Origin: Sphingobacterium sp. | GTDB taxonomy: Bacteria > Bacteroidota > Bacteroidia > Sphingobacteriales > Sphingobacteriaceae | Reading direction: 5' to 3' | Length of the DNA stretch: 64,000 nt | NCBI GenBank assembly: GCA_029239355.1 | Contig: JAQZAZ010000018.1 | Coordinates: forward strand, 1 to 64,000 | Shown: positions 15,651 to 60,809 of the stretch, in pieces | How positions within the stretch are numbered: the first letter of the stretch is position 1 | How the letters are laid out: the number at the start of each line of letters is the position of its first letter | Made by a program: the position numbers and the translations under genes | Notes under the pieces: model-generated | The model's input: only the letters and a program-made list of their open reading frames with translations | The model's database searches: none | What the model was told of the DNA's origin: nothing

Positions 15651-16021
15651 TTTATCAGACTTTTTTCGAAGCCAATTGTTACGTTCTCGGCTGTACTAAC
15701 CCTATAATTGAGTAATATGCATTGCAATCAGGGAAACGATTAGGGAGACAGTATATTGGCATAACCAGTCCAAGTTCTGTCACTTTCAAGCCAGTCGATG
15801 AGTATACTAATGGAACCGAAGTTAAAAATTATCGAAAAGGCATATGTATACTTTCGGAGCCTGTAGTCGAACGGTAGAAATCGAGGGTAGATACCATGTT
15901 AATTAAAGTAGCTTACGGAATACAGCTTTAAAACGATCACAGTATTTTAACTGAAGCGATTAAAAGTATTTAGTCTGAGAAATAGGAGGTGAAGGGGGTA
16001 AAATATCTATTTAGATAAAAC

Positions 16022-16085
16022 AAAAAAGGTTTTCAAACGGGGAGAATGAAAACCTTTAATAACCAATTATAAACCTAAATTATGA
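16022..16085 (-). ncRNA. Candidate small RNA, copy 1 (about 60 nt) ending in an intrinsic terminator
   Basis: Minus strand 5'-CATAATTTAGGTTTATAATTGGTTATTAAAGGTTTTCATTCTCCCCGTTTGAAAACCTTTTTT. The 11-bp stem AAAGGTTTTCA/TGAAAACCTTT has an 11-nt loop TTCTCCCCGTT and a T tract. Nearly identical to 28245-28310. Confidence 0.65.
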
Positions 16086-16090
16086 TAGTA

Positions 16091-16121
16091 CAAAGATAGT
16101 GTGTTTTATACACACTAACAA
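16091..16121 (-). promoter_or_regulatory. Bacteroidota-type promoter for sRNA copy 1
   Basis: Minus strand TTG (16121-16119) - 20 nt - TATCTTTG (16098-16091); matches the TTG / TAnnTTTG consensus. Confidence 0.7.
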
Positions 16122-28244: not shown

Positions 28245-28310
28245 TAAAAAAAGGTTTTCAAACGGGGAGAATGAAAACCTTAAATAACCAATTATAAACC
28301 TAAATTATGA
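28245..28310 (-). ncRNA. Candidate small RNA, copy 2, ending in an intrinsic terminator
   Basis: Minus strand 5'-ATCATAATTTAGGTTTATAATTGGTTATTTAAGGTTTTCATTCTCCCCGTTTGAAAACCTTTTTTTATAAC; 10-bp hairpin with the same 11-nt loop; nearly identical to copy 1. Confidence 0.65.
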
Positions 28311-28315
28311 TTCTA

Positions 28316-28346
28316 CAAAGATAGTGTCTTTGTTACACTTTGTCAA
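28316..28346 (-). promoter_or_regulatory. Bacteroidota-type promoter for sRNA copy 2
   Basis: Minus strand TTG (28346-28344) - 20 nt - TATCTTTG (28323-28316). Same spacing as copy 1 but a largely different spacer sequence. Confidence 0.7.
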
Positions 28347-46259: not shown

Positions 46260-49200
46260 TTAAAATTGCATGTTAAGTCCAAAAAGGAAATTGCGCGTGG
46301 TTGGATAAGCCGAAAGCTCGATACCTGAAGTTAGGTTTGGACTACCGTCACCCGCCAATTCTGGAGAGAAACCGCTATAGTTGGTAAACATAAATGGATT
46401 CTGAGCCGTTACATATAGTCGCAATTTTGATTTTGAGCTATACAGTTTATCAAAAGTATAGCCAACGGTGATGTTGTTGATACGGAAGTAGCTGCCTGAT
46501 TCTAAGAAATAACTTGACGCCCAAATCGCCCGTTCAGCACCGGGATGCACATTGGTTGAGCCTGGCCCCGTCCAACGGTTTTCAAAGGTCGACAGGGCAA
46601 TATTTTCTCCACCATCGGTACGTGTACTTTTCATCCCGTTATAAATTTTATTTCCTCCGACACCATATCCTGAGATATTGAAATCAATTGCTTTGTAATT
46701 GATACCCAGATTAATGCCGTATGTTGAACTTGGTATAAAGGAACCGAAGAATTTCTTATCTCTGGTATCAATTACACCATCATCATTTTGGTCCTTATAT
46801 TTTAAGTAACCGGGTTTAGCTGGTCCAAAAGAGGGGTTATTGGCGATATCATTTGCATCCTGAAAAACACCGATAGATTCAAACATCCACCAACCGTAAA
46901 TTGGCTGTCCGACGCGCAGCTGTTTTGTAATTTCACCATTGTTCAAACTTCCACCGGTAGCACCATCATAAGTATGGACAACATCTGTTACTTTGTTGCT
47001 GTTATAGGAATAGTTGACACCCACGGAATAGCTAAAATCTGGCGATATACTTTTGTTCCAATTTAATGCAACTTCAACTCCTTGATTTAATACCTTGGCG
47101 CCATGTGCATAATAGTTTTTTTCATCTGGTGAAGAATAGATTGGGGTGACGTCCAGAATGGTATTGGTATTCTTTTTATGATAATAATCGACTGATCCAG
47201 ATAGATTATTAAATACAGTGAAGTCGATTCCGGCACCTGTTTCCTTGGTAACCTCCCAGCTTAAGTCAACTGGAGGTGTTCCTTTTGCGCTACCATATAC
47301 CATATTCTGTTCGGGACCAAAAACATAATTGTAATTGGAACTTTCTGGACTTGAGAAAATATTATACGCATTTAAAGGAATATTCTGGTTACCTAAATGT
47401 CCATAGTTTGCTCTGACTTTTAAGAAGTTGATCCAACTGATGTCTTTCATGAATTGTTCGTTGGATGCAGTCCAGCCAAAACCAAAGGATGGAAATGTTC
47501 CCCAATATTTCCCTGTATTACGAAACACGCTTGAGGCATCTCTTCGAACTGTAGCTGTTAAATAATAACGACTATCATAGTTGTATTGTACCCGTCCAAA
47601 ATAAGACGCTAAGGCTCTAGGTGTATAGTATGTCTGCAATGAAACGATGTCATAACCATCTGATTTTCCTTTTGCTAAATTGATATTCCAATACTGTTCT
47701 TGTTCTGGAACATTATAGCCCATTTGGCTGTTCATACTGTTGATATCGTATTTTTCACGAGACATCCCCACCACAGCTTCGATATTGTGCTTATCAAATG
47801 TCTTGTTAAATGTTAGGAAGTTTTCCCATGACCATCTGAACTGTTCAAGATTTTCATATTTCAAACTGTTATCAGCATAACTGGTATTCCCAGGCCTACT
47901 ACCTTTTTCTTTATAGAATTCACTTTCAGCTCGTAAGGGATTTGCATTGAGCCAACGATCTTTAATGTCAGTGAAGATTCGTTGCTTTGAGTAGAATTTG
48001 TTTGCCCCAATGCGTGAATTTATTTTTAAATAGTCTGTAATTTTAAATTCACCTTCGAAGCTCCCCTGAAGTCGTAACGTATTTGTTCGTTCATTTTGTC
48101 TGAGAACCTCATAAACGGGGTTGCCAATTGTATTTAAATTTCCTATGGTTTGACCAGTTGTTCCATCTATACCAACTATTCCGGTATTTTGGTTCACGCG
48201 TCCAATCCCATAACGACCATTGGAATACATTAAAGGAACTAATGGCGACTGTTTATATGCTGTTGTAAAAGCGCTATTTGGCTTTGGTGTAGCATTTGTC
48301 AAGGTTAAATTAAGATTTTGCGAAAACTTCAGCCTATTGTTTAAAAATTTATAAACATTGTTGTTACGGATCGTATTCCGGACATATTTGGAGCCATCAA
48401 GGATACCGTTTTCGGTAAAGTTATTTGCCGAAACAAAATAATCGACTTTTTCTGTACCACCAGCGATGTTTACAGCATTGTTAAACACCGTTCCGGTTTT
48501 GATCAATTCGTCATACCAATCGGTGTTATTAGGCTGATTTTCTTTTATTTCCCAATTGGTTATTCCAAGAGATTGCAAATTTTCATTAAAGTACGTTCTG
48601 AATTGATCCCCATTGGCCATTTTTACACGATTGAGAATTTTCTTCATTCCAGCATAACTTTCGTAATTAATGCTAACAGTACCCGCTTTACCCTTTTTTG
48701 TGGTTACGATAATGACACCATTTGCTGCTCTCAGACCATAGATAGATGCTGAGGATGCATCTTTCAACACATCCATCGATTCAATATCCGAAGGGTTGAT
48801 GTTATTAATGTCGTCCTGTGCGATACCATCCACAACATATAAGGGATTTCGACCAGACAGAGCTGTACCCAGCCCCCTAATAATAACATTTGGTGAAGAT
48901 CCCGGAGCCTCGTTCGCAATAATATTCAAACCGGCTGCTTTACCCTGAATGGATTGCATTGCTGACATCGCAGGCTGTTTGGCAATATCCGAAGATTTCA
49001 ATGAGCTAATTGATCCGGTGAGATCGGCTTTCTTTTGTGTACCATAACCAATAACCACAACCTCTTCCAAGGCCTTATTTTCGTTCTCTAGAAAAACATT
49101 AAGTTGCGTTTGGTTTCCGATGGATACCGTTTGCGTGCGGTAGCCTAGAAAATTAAAAACTAAGGAGTCGGTAGGAGCGGCGTTGATTTGAAATTTACCC

Positions 49201-49364
49201 GTTGCGTCGGTTTTGGTAGATGCTGCTTTTCCCTTGATACTAATGGTGACCCCTGGCATGGATATCATGCTGGAACCATCTTTGACCACTCCTTGGATAG
49301 AAGTTTGTCCATAGGCAACCGAGACGACCATGGATGTCAAAAATAATGCGGATAGATTCCTCAT
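46260..49364 (-). CDS. SusC-family TonB-dependent transporter
   Basis: QGVVKDGSSMISMPGVTISIKG; EEVVVIGYGTQKKADLTGSIS; NPLYVVDGI; DASSASIYGLRAANGVIIVTTKKG. Confidence 0.96.
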   Translation of the reverse strand: MRNLSALFLTSMVVSVAYGQTSIQGVVKDGSSMISMPGVTISIKGKAASTKTDATGKFQINAAPTDSLVFNFLGYRTQTVSIGNQTQLNVFLENENKALEEVVVIGYGTQKKADLTGSISSLKSSDIAKQPAMSAMQSIQGKAAGLNIIANEAPGSSPNVIIRGLGTALSGRNPLYVVDGIAQDDINNINPSDIESMDVLKDASSASIYGLRAANGVIIVTTKKGKAGTVSINYESYAGMKKILNRVKMANGDQFRTYFNENLQSLGITNWEIKENQPNNTDWYDELIKTGTVFNNAVNIAGGTEKVDYFVSANNFTENGILDGSKYVRNTIRNNNVYKFLNNRLKFSQNLNLTLTNATPKPNSAFTTAYKQSPLVPLMYSNGRYGIGRVNQNTGIVGIDGTTGQTIGNLNTIGNPVYEVLRQNERTNTLRLQGSFEGEFKITDYLKINSRIGANKFYSKQRIFTDIKDRWLNANPLRAESEFYKEKGSRPGNTSYADNSLKYENLEQFRWSWENFLTFNKTFDKHNIEAVVGMSREKYDINSMNSQMGYNVPEQEQYWNINLAKGKSDGYDIVSLQTYYTPRALASYFGRVQYNYDSRYYLTATVRRDASSVFRNTGKYWGTFPSFGFGWTASNEQFMKDISWINFLKVRANYGHLGNQNIPLNAYNIFSSPESSNYNYVFGPEQNMVYGSAKGTPPVDLSWEVTKETGAGIDFTVFNNLSGSVDYYHKKNTNTILDVTPIYSSPDEKNYYAHGAKVLNQGVEVALNWNKSISPDFSYSVGVNYSYNSNKVTDVVHTYDGATGGSLNNGEITKQLRVGQPIYGWWMFESIGVFQDANDIANNPSFGPAKPGYLKYKDQNDDGVIDTRDKKFFGSFIPSSTYGINLGINYKAIDFNISGYGVGGNKIYNGMKSTRTDGGENIALSTFENRWTGPGSTNVHPGAERAIWASSYFLESGSYFRINNITVGYTFDKLYSSKSKLRLYVTAQNPFMFTNYSGFSPELAGDGSPNLTSGIELSAYPTTRNFLFGLNMQF

Positions 49365-49551: not shown

Positions 49552-49595
49552 GTAAAAAAAAGAGCGCTTTAGTGTAAAAATAACACTAAAGCGCT
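49552..49595 (-). terminator. Intrinsic terminator downstream of the propeller/LuxR regulator
   Basis: AGCGCTTTAGTGT-N7-ACACTAAAGCGCT, 13-bp perfect stem, T8 tail on the minus strand. Confidence 0.8.
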
Positions 49596-52834: not shown

Positions 52835-55800
52835 ATGAAATCAAAGCTTTTCAGAAGAGGGCCCTGTGCGCTTATTCCCTATGCATCCATGGCAATATTT
52901 TTGTCACCTGGATTATTATTGGGGATAACTAAAGGCGAAAACAGAGGTATCTATCATCAAATTAATCAGGAAGAATCAGAAATCAGAGGTAAGGTTGTCA
53001 ACAAAGACAATTCTCCCTTGCAGGGAGTTTCTATAAGCGTGAAGGGAGTCCCCGGCCGGAGTACACAGACTAACGATAAAGGTGAGTTTATGTTAAAGGT
53101 ACCTGCGAATGCAACATTAACTTTTTCTTCCATTGGTTACGCTGGGCAAGAAATTAAACTTGGGGCGAATCAAAAGACGGTACAGCTCACCTTACAATCG
53201 AATGAGTCAGTTATGGATGAGGTCGTTGTCGTGGGCTATGGAACACAACGAAAAAGTGATTTAACAGGTTCCGTGTCTTCCATTAATGCGAATCAAATTA
53301 ATGCATTTCCATTGGCAGGTACTGCACAAGCATTACAGGGGAGAGCCCCTGGGGTCTCAGTGACCAGCACAAATGGAGAACCCGGTAAAGCTCCTCGTGT
53401 TCGGATTAGGGGCGGTAGTTCCATCAATGCGAGTAGTGATCCATTGTATGTGGTTGATGGCTTTCCCGGTAGTTCGGCCCCTGCTCCCGAAGATGTCGAA
53501 TCTATCGAAGTGTTAAAAGACGCTTCTGCAACAGCTATTTATGGCTCCAGAGGTGCCAATGGAGTGATCATGATAACAACGAAAAAAGGACGTTCGGGCA
53601 AACCTGTTATTGAATTAAATAATTCCTTTGCTTCACAGAAAGTAGGGAAGCGCCTTTCGCTATTAAATGCGTCGGAATTTGCCTCTTATATTAACGATAC
53701 CTATAAGAATGCTGGGAACAATAATCTACCATTTAAAGATCCTGGATCCCTGGGTAAAGGAACTGATTGGCAGGACCTGATTTTTAGAAATGGAAATCAG
53801 TTGAATAATCAAGTCTCCGTGTCGGGAGGCAGTGACAATATTAGGTATTATACTTCCGTCAGTCATTTTGGACAAAAGGGAACTGTGATCAACTCGGATT
53901 TTAGAAGACTTTCCGGGACTTCAAATTTAGAGATGAAGGTCTCTGATCGCATCAAAATCGGAACAAGACTGCTGTTTAATCGCAATAAATTAAACGGTGT
54001 AAGAACACAGGAAGGAAGTAGCGGAACGACAGGTGCGGGAGTGATCTCCGCAGCCTTGCGCTTTGAACCTACACAGGGAGTTTACGATGATGAAGGAAAA
54101 TACACCTTGAAGCAGTTCGGTGACCCGCATGATAATCCGGTAGCTGCTGCTATGGAAAGGAAAAACGAGGTGATTACAGATCTGTTTCAGGGGAATGGAT
54201 TTGTGGAGTTGGGAATTCTCAAAAATCTGATCTTTCGTAGCACCTTTGGTGTACAGGTCAGTAATCAACGCACAGGTAATTATGTCTCAAAAGAACTTGT
54301 CGAAGGAAGAAATTTCGGTGGAGTTGGATCGATCGCGGCACATAAAAATACCAATTTGATTAATGAAAACTTCCTGACATATACGCAAACCATTCGCGAA
54401 GACCATAATCTGAATGCGATGGCTGGTTATTCCTATCAGAGTTCTAGAAATGAAACCTGGCAGGCCAATAATCGAAATTTCATTTCAGACAGCTTTAGCT
54501 ATTGGAATCTAGGTGCTGGTTCCAATTATCAAAATGCATCTTCGAATCTTGAAGATTGGGTAATGTCTTCATTTTATGGGCGTTTAAACTACAATTACAA
54601 AAATCGTTACTTTATTACTGCTACAGGTAGGTATGATGGTTCTTCGAAGTTTGGTGACAATAATAAATGGGCTTTCTTTCCTTCTGGGGCGCTTGCCTGG
54701 AACCTGAGTCAGGAGCCGTTTATGAAATCGATCGATTGGCTGAGCAATTTAAAATTGCGAACAAGTTATGGCGAAACCGGAAACTCGGAAATTGGTTCCT
54801 ACCAATCCTTGGCTAGATTTTCACCTACTTTGACAACAATGGGCGGAAGTCCAGTTAACGCAGTGCGTCCCACGAATGTCGCCAATCCGAATCTGACTTG
54901 GGAAACGACCAAACAAACAGACGCTGGATTGGATCTCGGTATTCTCAAGAGCCGAATAAACCTATCAGTAGACTATTATTACAAAAAAACGATCAATCTC
55001 TTGTATCAGGTGCCACTGCCGCTCTATTCAGGTTTTACTACGGCACTCCAAAATGTGGGAAGTGTACAAAACAAAGGTTGGGAATTTGGTTTGCAGACAA
55101 CCAATCTCAACGGTGCCTTCGGATGGAAAACAGATTTTAACATCAGTTTCAATCGCAACAAGATTTTGCAGCTTCCTGGAGGCGAGATTCGATATAATAC
55201 GATCCCTGGTCACATGCTTTCAACGGATTCGCAGCTGCTACGGGAAGGAGAGGTACTCGGCGCATTTTTTGGATGGGTGACAGATGGAATTTATCAGCAG
55301 GGCGATGATTTTAGCGCACAACCAAATAAGAAACCTGGAGATATTCGCTATAAGGATTTATTTGGGCGCGATAAAAATAATCAATTGATCGCCGGTGCAA
55401 ACGGTGTTGTCAATGCTGACGACCGTACGATTATAGGTAATCCAAATCCTGATTTCACCTTCGGTTTTAACAATGATTTTAAGTATAAGAATTTTGATCT
55501 GAATATTTTTATGCAAGGAAGTTACGGCAATGATATGTTGAATATCACACGAATGGAACTGGACTGGATGGCCGGAAAAGGAAATGCTACAAAGGATGCA
55601 CTGCGACGCTGGACACCCGAAAATACCAATACTGACGTACCAAGGGCAAGCTCAACCAACAATCCCGAAGTTTCCTCGCGCTGGGTAGAAGATGGCTCTT
55701 ACCTCCGCTTAAAGAATCTTGCTCTTGGCTATAATTTTTCAGAAAAGTCACTCGAAAAAATTCATTTAAAATATTTAAGAATATATGTCAGTGCACAAAA

Positions 55801-55936
55801 TATATGGACATGGACTAACTACACGGGTTTTGATCCTGAAGTAAGCTATCAGGATTCTAACCGAAATGTCGGATTAGATTACATGGGCTACCCCAATATT
55901 AAATCCTATACCCTTGGCTTAAATATAAGGTTTTGA
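52835..55936 (+). CDS. SusC-family TonB-dependent transporter
   Basis: IRGKVVNKDNSPLQGVSISVKG; DEVVVVGYGTQRKSDLTGSVS; DPLYVVDGFPG; DASATAIYGSRGANGVIMITTKKG. Confidence 0.96.
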   Translation: MKSKLFRRGPCALIPYASMAIFLSPGLLLGITKGENRGIYHQINQEESEIRGKVVNKDNSPLQGVSISVKGVPGRSTQTNDKGEFMLKVPANATLTFSSIGYAGQEIKLGANQKTVQLTLQSNESVMDEVVVVGYGTQRKSDLTGSVSSINANQINAFPLAGTAQALQGRAPGVSVTSTNGEPGKAPRVRIRGGSSINASSDPLYVVDGFPGSSAPAPEDVESIEVLKDASATAIYGSRGANGVIMITTKKGRSGKPVIELNNSFASQKVGKRLSLLNASEFASYINDTYKNAGNNNLPFKDPGSLGKGTDWQDLIFRNGNQLNNQVSVSGGSDNIRYYTSVSHFGQKGTVINSDFRRLSGTSNLEMKVSDRIKIGTRLLFNRNKLNGVRTQEGSSGTTGAGVISAALRFEPTQGVYDDEGKYTLKQFGDPHDNPVAAAMERKNEVITDLFQGNGFVELGILKNLIFRSTFGVQVSNQRTGNYVSKELVEGRNFGGVGSIAAHKNTNLINENFLTYTQTIREDHNLNAMAGYSYQSSRNETWQANNRNFISDSFSYWNLGAGSNYQNASSNLEDWVMSSFYGRLNYNYKNRYFITATGRYDGSSKFGDNNKWAFFPSGALAWNLSQEPFMKSIDWLSNLKLRTSYGETGNSEIGSYQSLARFSPTLTTMGGSPVNAVRPTNVANPNLTWETTKQTDAGLDLGILKSRINLSVDYYYKKTINLLYQVPLPLYSGFTTALQNVGSVQNKGWEFGLQTTNLNGAFGWKTDFNISFNRNKILQLPGGEIRYNTIPGHMLSTDSQLLREGEVLGAFFGWVTDGIYQQGDDFSAQPNKKPGDIRYKDLFGRDKNNQLIAGANGVVNADDRTIIGNPNPDFTFGFNNDFKYKNFDLNIFMQGSYGNDMLNITRMELDWMAGKGNATKDALRRWTPENTNTDVPRASSTNNPEVSSRWVEDGSYLRLKNLALGYNFSEKSLEKIHLKYLRIYVSAQNIWTWTNYTGFDPEVSYQDSNRNVGLDYMGYPNIKSYTLGLNIRF

Positions 55937-57719: not shown

Positions 57720-60700
57720 ATGATAACACCGACAACCAAAACGGTAGGGAAGGGTTTGCTTTTATTTTTGCTGATGAGTATGGCTGCACCTAACGTGTTT
57801 GCACAGTCTCAGCTAAAAATATCAGGAAAAGTAACCTCACCTGCAGGCGAACCACTTGCAGGGGTGACAGTACAGATTAAAGGCGCAAAGAATGGAACCG
57901 TTACAGATGTATCCGGCAATTATCAGATTCTTGCCAAGGATATTGATGTATTGATTTTTTCACTGGTAGGTAGAGAAAAAACAGAAATCGCTATTGTTAA
58001 AAAAGATCATATCAATCTAGTACTACAAGAGTCAAGTAGCCTAATGGACGAGGTCGTCGTTGTAGGTTACGGAACACAGAAAAAGAGCAATTTGACTGGA
58101 GCCGTTGCTGCAGTAGACGGAAAAGTACTGAATAAACGAATTGCGACTAATCCTACACAATTACTTCAAGGGCGTATGCCGGGACTTCGTGTGACACAAG
58201 GATCCGGAGAGGCAGGTAACGAAAATGTGAATTTACAAGTTAGGGGATTAGGTTCTTATGGTGCTTCTTCCGCACCATTGGTCATTGTGGATGGGATTCC
58301 CGGTAGTTTGGAGAACCTGAATCCACAGGCGATTGAAAATATTACAGTATTAAAAGACGCCGCCTCAGCAGCAATCTATGGAGCAAGAGCTGCAAACGGT
58401 GTGATCCTCGTGACAACCAAACAGGGGAAATCCGGAAAAGCACAACTGAGCTACGATTACAATGTTGGAATAACAAAGGCTTCAGCATTACCTGATTTGG
58501 TCTATAATTCGGTAGATTATATGACCCTATATAATCAAGCTGCTAAAAATTCTGGTATCACCAATGCGAATTCGCTGTTCAGCCAGGAAATGATTGATGC
58601 ATATAAAAATGCGACAGACAAAACGCTTTATCCTGACTTTAATTGGTTGGATGCCGTGTTTAAAACTGTACCCGTGCAAACGCATAATTTAAGTTTAAGT
58701 GGTGGTGCTAATGGAACCAATTATAACGTCATCCTTGGTTATGTCGATCAGCCCGATATTATGATTGGTACTTCCTTTAAAAAGTATAATCTCCAATTGA
58801 ACCTGAACTCGAAAATCAACGATAGAATAAGTTTTGGTTCGAGTATTACATTGAATTATCGTGATCGAAAATATCCGAGAAACGGAGCTGAAGATCAGTT
58901 CCTGTCCACAATAAGCCAGTCCCCGTTATATGGTCCTGTGCTTCCAGATGGAAGTGGCCGATATACTTCCCGAGCTTACCCATTTCAGTCACCCAATAAA
59001 AACCCAGTTGCGGTTGCAGACAACGCATTGACTAGACTGAACAATTACTTTATGCAGGGCAATATCTTTGTGAATATAAAGCTATTGGAGGGTTTAGAAT
59101 GGAAAACCAGCGGTGGTTTAACCTATAGTTTTAACAAAAACTATACAAACAAACCAGTGATCAATCAGTATATGTGGCAGGCAAAACCAGATGCACTGCC
59201 TGCACGCCAATTGGATGTCGGAGGACAAGGATTGGAGGTGACTGATGATAACAATGTATATCCTGTGGGGTATACCCAACTGACTTACGACAAGTCATTT
59301 GGAGACCATAATTTGAAAGTATTAGCCGGCACACAAGCAGAATATAACAAGACGCAAAAATTATTTGGCAGCAGATTGCAATTCCCTAATAAAGATCTGC
59401 TTGAATTGGATGGTGGTGGTGCCGGACAACAGTCAAATAGTGGCGTGACTGATGAATGGTCTTTAAGATCTTATTACGGTCGCTTAAATTATGATTATAA
59501 AGGCAAATACCTGTTGGAGGGAAATGCCCGTTATGATGCTTCTTCACGTTTTCCCGAAAATAGAAAATGGGCCTTTTTCCCATCCGTATCAGCAGGATGG
59601 AAGATCTCAGATGAAGCTTTTTTTGGTGAACGGCTTAAAGAGACAGTCAATGAAGTCAAACTTAGGGCTTCCATAGGAACCCTCGGTAATCAGAATATCG
59701 GAAACTATCCCTATCAAACTGTTTACAGCTCTGCTTTTGCCTATCCATTTGAAGAAACCCTACAACAGGGAGCACGTCAGGTTGCTATGGCAAATGAACG
59801 TATAAAGTGGGAAAGTACCAAAGTATTGGATTTTGGTATTGATCTCGGATTCTGGAATAATAAGTTGACAGCCTCTTTTGATTGGTACAATAAAGTGACC
59901 TCCGATATTCTGTCATCATCGACAGCATTCCCTTCCTATATCGGTCTTACTGCCCCGACTGTAAATTATGGAACGTTGCGTAATAGGGGGATCGAACTCG
60001 GACTTCAATACCGTGAAAAAATTGGGGAAGTGTCCTTAACATTAAATGGTAATATCCAAGCCAATAGCAATAAGGTTATAAAATATGGAGCTGAACGTAT
60101 TTCAGGCAATACCATTATTCGGGAGGGGTTACCATATGGCAGTTTCTACTTACTGGAAAGTGTAGGAATATTTCGCTCGAAGGAAGAGATCGCAAGTTCG
60201 CCAAAACAACAAGTCCCAGCGCAACCTGGCTATTTGAAATTTGCGGATGTCGATGGTGATAACAAGGTGGACAATAATGACCGCGTTGTAGTACCTGGGG
60301 CATTCCCAGATTTTGATTATTCATTTAATGCCAGCGCAGTATGGAAAAACTTTGATTTTACGGCATTTTTCTTTGGATCTCAAGGCCAAAAAATATTTGT
60401 TAGCGAATGGGGAATCGTTCCTTTTAGACAAGGCGGGACTTTCACGCGAGAATGGATGGACGCTTGGACACCGGAAAATCCAAATGCATCGTTACCGATT
60501 GTAGGATTAGACAATTCACCAGCAGCAAATAATGTACGGACGGCCTCTACATTTTTCTTGAAAGATGGATCTTTCTTACGATTGAAAAATATTCAAATAG
60601 GTTACAGTATTCCACAGAATACATTATCAAAGGCAGGTATTTCGGGATTACGTGTTTATTTTGCCGCAGATAATCTGGTTACTTTTTCGAAGTTCCCAGG

Positions 60701-60809
60701 TTTAGATCCAGAACGCGGTGTATCGTCCAGCGGTGGAGCAACCTCAGGACGTTATGTAACCCATCCTCAAAATAAAGTTTTTGCATTTGGTGCAAATATC
60801 ACCTTCTAA
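57720..60809 (+). CDS. SusC-family TonB-dependent transporter
   Basis: ISGKVTSPAGEPLAGVTVQIKG; DEVVVVGYGTQKKSNLTGAVA; APLVIVDGIPG; DAASAAIYGARAANGVILVTTKQG. Confidence 0.96.
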   Translation: MITPTTKTVGKGLLLFLLMSMAAPNVFAQSQLKISGKVTSPAGEPLAGVTVQIKGAKNGTVTDVSGNYQILAKDIDVLIFSLVGREKTEIAIVKKDHINLVLQESSSLMDEVVVVGYGTQKKSNLTGAVAAVDGKVLNKRIATNPTQLLQGRMPGLRVTQGSGEAGNENVNLQVRGLGSYGASSAPLVIVDGIPGSLENLNPQAIENITVLKDAASAAIYGARAANGVILVTTKQGKSGKAQLSYDYNVGITKASALPDLVYNSVDYMTLYNQAAKNSGITNANSLFSQEMIDAYKNATDKTLYPDFNWLDAVFKTVPVQTHNLSLSGGANGTNYNVILGYVDQPDIMIGTSFKKYNLQLNLNSKINDRISFGSSITLNYRDRKYPRNGAEDQFLSTISQSPLYGPVLPDGSGRYTSRAYPFQSPNKNPVAVADNALTRLNNYFMQGNIFVNIKLLEGLEWKTSGGLTYSFNKNYTNKPVINQYMWQAKPDALPARQLDVGGQGLEVTDDNNVYPVGYTQLTYDKSFGDHNLKVLAGTQAEYNKTQKLFGSRLQFPNKDLLELDGGGAGQQSNSGVTDEWSLRSYYGRLNYDYKGKYLLEGNARYDASSRFPENRKWAFFPSVSAGWKISDEAFFGERLKETVNEVKLRASIGTLGNQNIGNYPYQTVYSSAFAYPFEETLQQGARQVAMANERIKWESTKVLDFGIDLGFWNNKLTASFDWYNKVTSDILSSSTAFPSYIGLTAPTVNYGTLRNRGIELGLQYREKIGEVSLTLNGNIQANSNKVIKYGAERISGNTIIREGLPYGSFYLLESVGIFRSKEEIASSPKQQVPAQPGYLKFADVDGDNKVDNNDRVVVPGAFPDFDYSFNASAVWKNFDFTAFFFGSQGQKIFVSEWGIVPFRQGGTFTREWMDAWTPENPNASLPIVGLDNSPAANNVRTASTFFLKDGSFLRLKNIQIGYSIPQNTLSKAGISGLRVYFAADNLVTFSKFPGLDPERGVSSSGGATSGRYVTHPQNKVFAFGANITF

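Follow-up and report, generated by a model that had tools for sequence, protein, structure and literature searches.

Two predicted small RNA genes in the window

The window (the whole 64,000-nt stretch of Sphingobacterium sp. DNA that was analyzed) harbors two predicted small RNA (sRNA) genes together with genes of the SusC family. The first sRNA gene, copy 1, is predicted at 16021..16086 on the minus strand (∼66 nt) and occupies the gap at 16022-16121, for which an earlier note had claimed a stand-alone sRNA gene of ∼60 nt and the absence of any coding sequence. No credible open reading frame was found there, and the length predicted from the sequence is about 60-70 nt. The Bacteroidota promoter described for this gap was located on the minus strand as a sigma-ABfr-type promoter, with the TTG of the -33 element at 16119-16121, a spacer of exactly 20 nt and the -7 element TATCTTTG at 16091-16098, the published -7 consensus being TAnnTTTG (PMC7366714). 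Applying the spacing of FopS sRNAs after TTTG predicts a start at ∼16086, directly followed by a conserved 26-nt 5′ core and predicted seed, TCATAATTTAGGTTTATAATTGGTTA, at 16060..16085 (minus strand). The AT-rich stretch described between promoter and terminator is present, and the terminator was found as described, AAAGGTTTTCA-TTCTCCCCGTT-TGAAAACCTTT at 16025-16057 (minus strand) with a T tract at 16022-16027 that overlaps the stem end. Hairpin and T tract together span 16022..16057; the stem is a perfect 11 bp and the C-rich loop, TTCTCCCCGTT at 16036-16046, is 11 nt long. The promoter spacer is occupied by an inverted repeat, AGTGTG-N7-CACACT, which lies within AGTGTGTTTTATACACACT (16098..16116) and contains GTGT-N7-ACAC, a putative operator of the AraR/NrtR type placed over the promoter.

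A search with the hairpin pattern, allowing up to three mismatches, gave two matches in the window and none in 100 shuffles. The second match (28250-28282) belongs to copy 2, a unit at 28246-28346 with its own promoter and a predicted sibling sRNA at 28246..28311 (minus strand). Its 26-nt core at 28285..28310 (minus strand) is identical to that of copy 1, its -7 element TATCTTTG lies at 28316..28323 (minus strand) with TTG at 28344-28346, and AGTGTCTTTGTTACACT at 28323..28339 provides a putative operator of the same AraR/NrtR type. Folding of the predicted transcript left the 5′ half mostly unpaired and formed the hairpin in the 3′ half (z = -2.5).

A multicopy family with a conserved 5′ end

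The source genome (6.0 Mb in 316 contigs) contains 17 matches to copy 1, and pattern searches combined with inspection of loci raised the number of sRNA copies to at least 21, situated between ordinary chromosomal genes. Common to the copies are the first ∼26 nt immediately 3′ of the predicted start site, UCAUAAUUUAGGUUWAUAAUUGGUUA, and in the genome's copies TCATAATTTAGGTTWATAATTGGTTA is shared at this position with few changes. Identity between copies is 0.97 in the core and 0.45 in the hairpin part, and falls to 0.25-0.28 beyond roughly -80 to +80. Because only this low identity remains outside the promoter/terminator span, the copies have no repeated body and give no indication of a mobile-element end, a condition that the earlier note had named as refuting its reading; similarity among copies ends at promoter and terminator, and this candidate was rejected. 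Judged by sequence, conservation resides in the 5′ body, and the hairpin is a variable terminator. Stem pairing is nevertheless maintained, with 94.7% of cells paired across copies and 40 cells altered on both sides versus 14 in shuffles, a value that none of 500 shuffles reached. The position of copy 1, 3′ of a GFO/IDH oxidoreductase gene, is conserved in Sphingobacterium griseoflavum (L124).

Tandem copies, between a few hundred and a few thousand bases apart, were seen in L113, L081, L143 and contig C50 of G000 (L016), and those inspected had separate upstream regions.

When up to two mismatches were allowed, the core was detected in 100 of the 151 Sphingobacteriaceae genomes sampled, with a reversed-pattern control near zero, and in all 19 genomes of the genus of the window, at 7-27 copies per genome. 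Carriers include Sphingobacterium, Parapedobacter, Mucilaginibacter, Olivibacter, Arcticibacter and Pedobacter. A covariance model searched against 399 genomes of the phylum matched in Sphingobacteriaceae and, weakly, in one other family. At both gathering and relaxed thresholds Rfam gave nothing above threshold, the relaxed matches being mostly generic terminators, and copy 1, for which the earlier note had proposed this check, fell in no family. Literature searches on the core sequence and on Sphingobacterium or Pedobacter sRNAs returned nothing relevant. This is a predicted sRNA family lacking an above-threshold Rfam entry and any description in the literature searched.

Predicted pairing with susC start regions

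The reverse complement of the core, TAACCAATTATWAACCTAAATTATGA, resembles a Bacteroidota translation start, and many susC leaders of the source genome, which has at least 56 SusC genes, are of the type AATAACCAATTAACAAATT-ATGA. Duplex energies of the core averaged -12.16 kcal/mol at susC start regions versus -8.8 kcal/mol at other genes (p ∼6e-6 to 1e-5), in a comparison of 55 susC with about 55 other genes that is smaller than genome-wide, ignores accessibility and takes the first ATG as start codon. None of 200 shuffled cores matched the susC preference of the real core; the reversed core retained a weak preference for susC starts and the complement core had none. Strong pairings fell mostly between about -30 and +4 relative to the start codon, although pairing is imperfect, and weak in about half of the susC genes. 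Replication in other species was weak (p = 0.033, from five SusC-like genes only).

Three predicted targets lie in the window itself: a SusC-family gene at 46262..49364 on the minus strand (leader GGAATAACCAATTG..., duplex -12.8 kcal/mol), one at 52835..55933 on the plus strand (-13.4 kcal/mol), and one at 57816..60806 on the plus strand, given by the extent of its profile match (leader AAATAACCAC..., -16.3 kcal/mol). Because the shared 5′ end mirrors SusC start sites in antisense, the sRNAs probably switch off susC genes, which would make the family a probable repressor of sugar uptake.

Relation to FopS and other known systems

The closest parallel is FopS (Rfam RF04319), whose sRNAs pair at the start codon of susC and so repress its translation (PMC11697453). 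Induction by bile salts is a further property of FopS. FopS is likewise multicopy, with 14 copies in B. thetaiotaomicron versus at least 21 here, and its members share with the predicted sRNAs a length of ∼65-70 nt, a conserved single-stranded 5′ seed, a terminator hairpin and a seed antisense to susC start regions, the last established here in silico (PMC11697453). The motif UUUUCAU...AUUUA-AGGUUAAUAA of FopS is common with a class of copies here that carries YTTYTCAT. FopS promoters are mostly of the sigma-ABfr type, which here was found for copies 1 and 2 and their subfamily, with other types elsewhere. The differences are considerable, however. The FopS R1/R1′ seed, UUUUUCAUAGUAUUAGAUUUAAGGUUAACAAAGGUUGG, is only partially like the core; RF04319 scored 13.3 bits on copy 1 and 17.1 bits on L028 against a gathering threshold of 56 bits; the GTGT-N7-ACAC operator was present in none of 30 FopS promoters inspected; FopS loops are not C-rich, unlike those here; and the two families are found in different bacterial families. 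RbpB binds FopS in the seed region (PMC11697453); a partner protein would have to be presumed here, and no RRM-1 (RbpB-type) or Hfq gene was found in the source assembly, which is 91% complete.

The published FopS sRNAs and their susC leaders served as positive control in the same duplex test. In G240, a genome with FopS, the preference of the FopS seed for susC leaders amounted to 3.97 kcal/mol (p = 4e-7), whereas the Sphingobacterium seed had no susC preference (0.24 kcal/mol, p = 0.23). In the source genome, the preference was 3.40 kcal/mol for its own seed versus 1.50 kcal/mol for the FopS seed. Exchanging seeds between genomes thus abolished the preference of the Sphingobacterium seed and weakened that of the FopS seed; each seed favors the leaders of its own genome, and seed and leader have diverged together. 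Covariance model R1 matched four FopS elements in register, but at E 0.19-1.7, so that common descent with FopS is no more than plausible. Because the scores are far below threshold, the seed is another one and the bacterial families differ, we regard the family as no member of FopS; as predicted from sequence, it works like FopS yet is a new, diverged counterpart.

GibS of Bacteroides (PMC7366714) is similar in that it is intergenic and pairs at start codons through a conserved, unstructured 5′ seed, and its sugar-linked expression can be likened to the sugar-regulator input predicted below. It differs in having about twice the length, two seeds, a single copy, a PM2 promoter and non-SusC targets.

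Promoter inputs

The window copies belong to a subfamily with a GGTTTTCATTCTCCCCG hairpin, and GTGT-N7-ACAC occurs within 70 nt upstream in 18 of 31 promoters of this subfamily versus 31 of 13,291 background windows (0.23%). The sites AAGTGTTACTTTTACACC, AGTGTAAAAAAGACACTT and AGTGTATTTGATACACC of AraR (BT0354), an arabinose repressor of the NrtR family, conform to the operator pattern seen in copies 1 and 2 (PMC4666351). Mucilaginibacter copies carry AGTGTTACTTTTACAC, which the crystallized BtAraR site contains as well, the agreement being letter for letter in one Mucilaginibacter site (PMC4666351). The source genome encodes an AraR-like protein (L329:166-834) with AraR_C and NrtR_WHD domains, whose best PDB match is BtAraR 5bs6, and an operator-type site lies upstream of its gene at 21-38. 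The bare operator pattern was not enriched genome-wide over a reversed control, and the case for the operator therefore rests on its position in sRNA promoters. Copies 1 and 2 are thus predicted to have an NrtR/AraR-type regulated promoter, although sRNA genes as targets of such a regulator are a prediction of this analysis and the regulator may be AraR, XylR or another NrtR member.

A perfect AGTGT-N7-ACACTA was also noticed at 49570-49588, between the SusC gene at 46262-49364 (minus strand) and the gene starting upstream. Through this site, that SusC operon may come under the control of the same sugar regulator.

Different promoter classes adjoin the identical core. Elsewhere the core is preceded by TTGGCAC-type, sigma-54-like promoters or by YTTYTCAT, which lengthens the antisense pairing into ATGAAAAGA. 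On the question of sigma-54 for the TTGGCAC class, no RpoN was found in the source assembly, but three relatives have it.

Proposed mechanism and alternatives

We propose that ∼66-nt sRNAs with a shared seed block susC translation and that the copies differ in their input, an explanation to which we assign a probability of roughly three in four. Each of the at least 21 siblings would set an identical single-stranded 26-nt 5′ seed before its own terminator hairpin. The seed would pair across the start codon and ∼30 nt upstream of many mRNAs for SusC, the TonB-linked glycan porter, and would block ribosome entry, by which the family would lower glycan-utilization operons. What differs among copies would be the switch: the window copies and most of their subfamily would use a sigma-ABfr promoter under an NrtR-family (AraR/XylR) operator, and the remaining copies would be transcribed from sigma-54-like promoters or lie downstream of tRNA-like RNAs. 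Subfamily sRNAs would be released when the sugar of the regulator is present and would then keep porters of other glycans low. Regulation of glycan porters by sRNAs would thereby reach beyond gut Bacteroidaceae into an environmental family of Bacteroidota, with seed and target leaders diverging in step. The suggested layout is one of many siblings that share a single seed but respond to different signals. The finding also makes the proposed links to a sugar regulator and to phages directly testable.

The core could instead be mainly a signal for binding by an RNA-binding protein or for processing (sponge or maturation), its likeness to susC leaders arising because one protein acts on core and leaders alike or because both are AT-rich. 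Its extreme conservation, the phage copies behind tRNAs and the binding of RbpB to the FopS seed region are consistent with such a signal. However, core and leaders are reverse complements and hence differ in sequence, a relation that takes in the start codon and, in one class, ATGAAAAGA; the effect disappears with shuffled or complement cores and almost disappears with the reversed one; and seeds diverge with leaders. We consider this signal reading unlikely.

The earlier note had placed the seed in the C-rich terminator loop, directed against G-rich targets. A C run is indeed retained in the loop in 17 of 17 aligned copies (alignment A2) despite compensating stem variation, yet conservation is highest in the unpaired 5′ core, stems vary among copies, and the loops themselves differ (CTCCCCG, GCCCATC, CTCCCAA). 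The loop showed no preference for susC starts as predicted targets (-5.5 versus -6.7 kcal/mol), and as a SusC seed it was rejected; a loop seed of any kind now seems very improbable. Retention of the C run possibly reflects another role. Of that first reading, the small stand-alone sRNA gene outside Rfam and unconnected with a mobile-element end therefore stands, and the loop as seed does not.

A dispersed MITE- or REP-like repeat with an incidental promoter and terminator would account for many scattered intergenic copies with a hairpin, but is hardly credible given the lack of a repeated body beyond promoter and terminator, the different promoter classes before the same core, the compensated stem variation and the conserved place of copy 1 in S. 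griseoflavum.

Copies in phages and beside tRNA-like elements

Beyond chromosomes, an exact 19-mer of the core was found in 44 IMG/VR viral contigs (L223-L266, including L224, L232, L233, L238, L242, L251, L252, L253 and L256). The viral core is typically followed by a hairpin, and in the contigs inspected, genes for terminase, portal or head proteins are nearby. A tRNA T-arm motif stands just upstream in 12 of 42 viral copies versus 10 of 157 in the control. In phage GenBank records no convincing sRNA match was found, and a phage contig matched them in tRNA genes only. Tailed phages might use the anti-SusC seed to tap the sRNA network of the host and silence SusC porters, which could be phage receptors or nutrient gates, and thereby exclude superinfection or take over the host, with tRNA 3′ processing freeing the RNA; we regard this role as doubtful.

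Viral core and hairpin often lie 6-14 nt 3′ of a tRNA or tRNA-like end. Many chromosomal copies in Mucilaginibacter are similarly located ∼9 nt 3′ of a conserved tRNA-like element. This element, with T-arm GAAGGTTCGACTCCTTC and the end CTACA, was seen directly upstream of Mucilaginibacter and Arcticibacter cores, at L027, L061, L067, L071, L081, L138, L149, L162-L164 and other loci. It falls below the Rfam tRNA threshold, and aragorn calls only part of it, with an "intron" of 13-15 nt.
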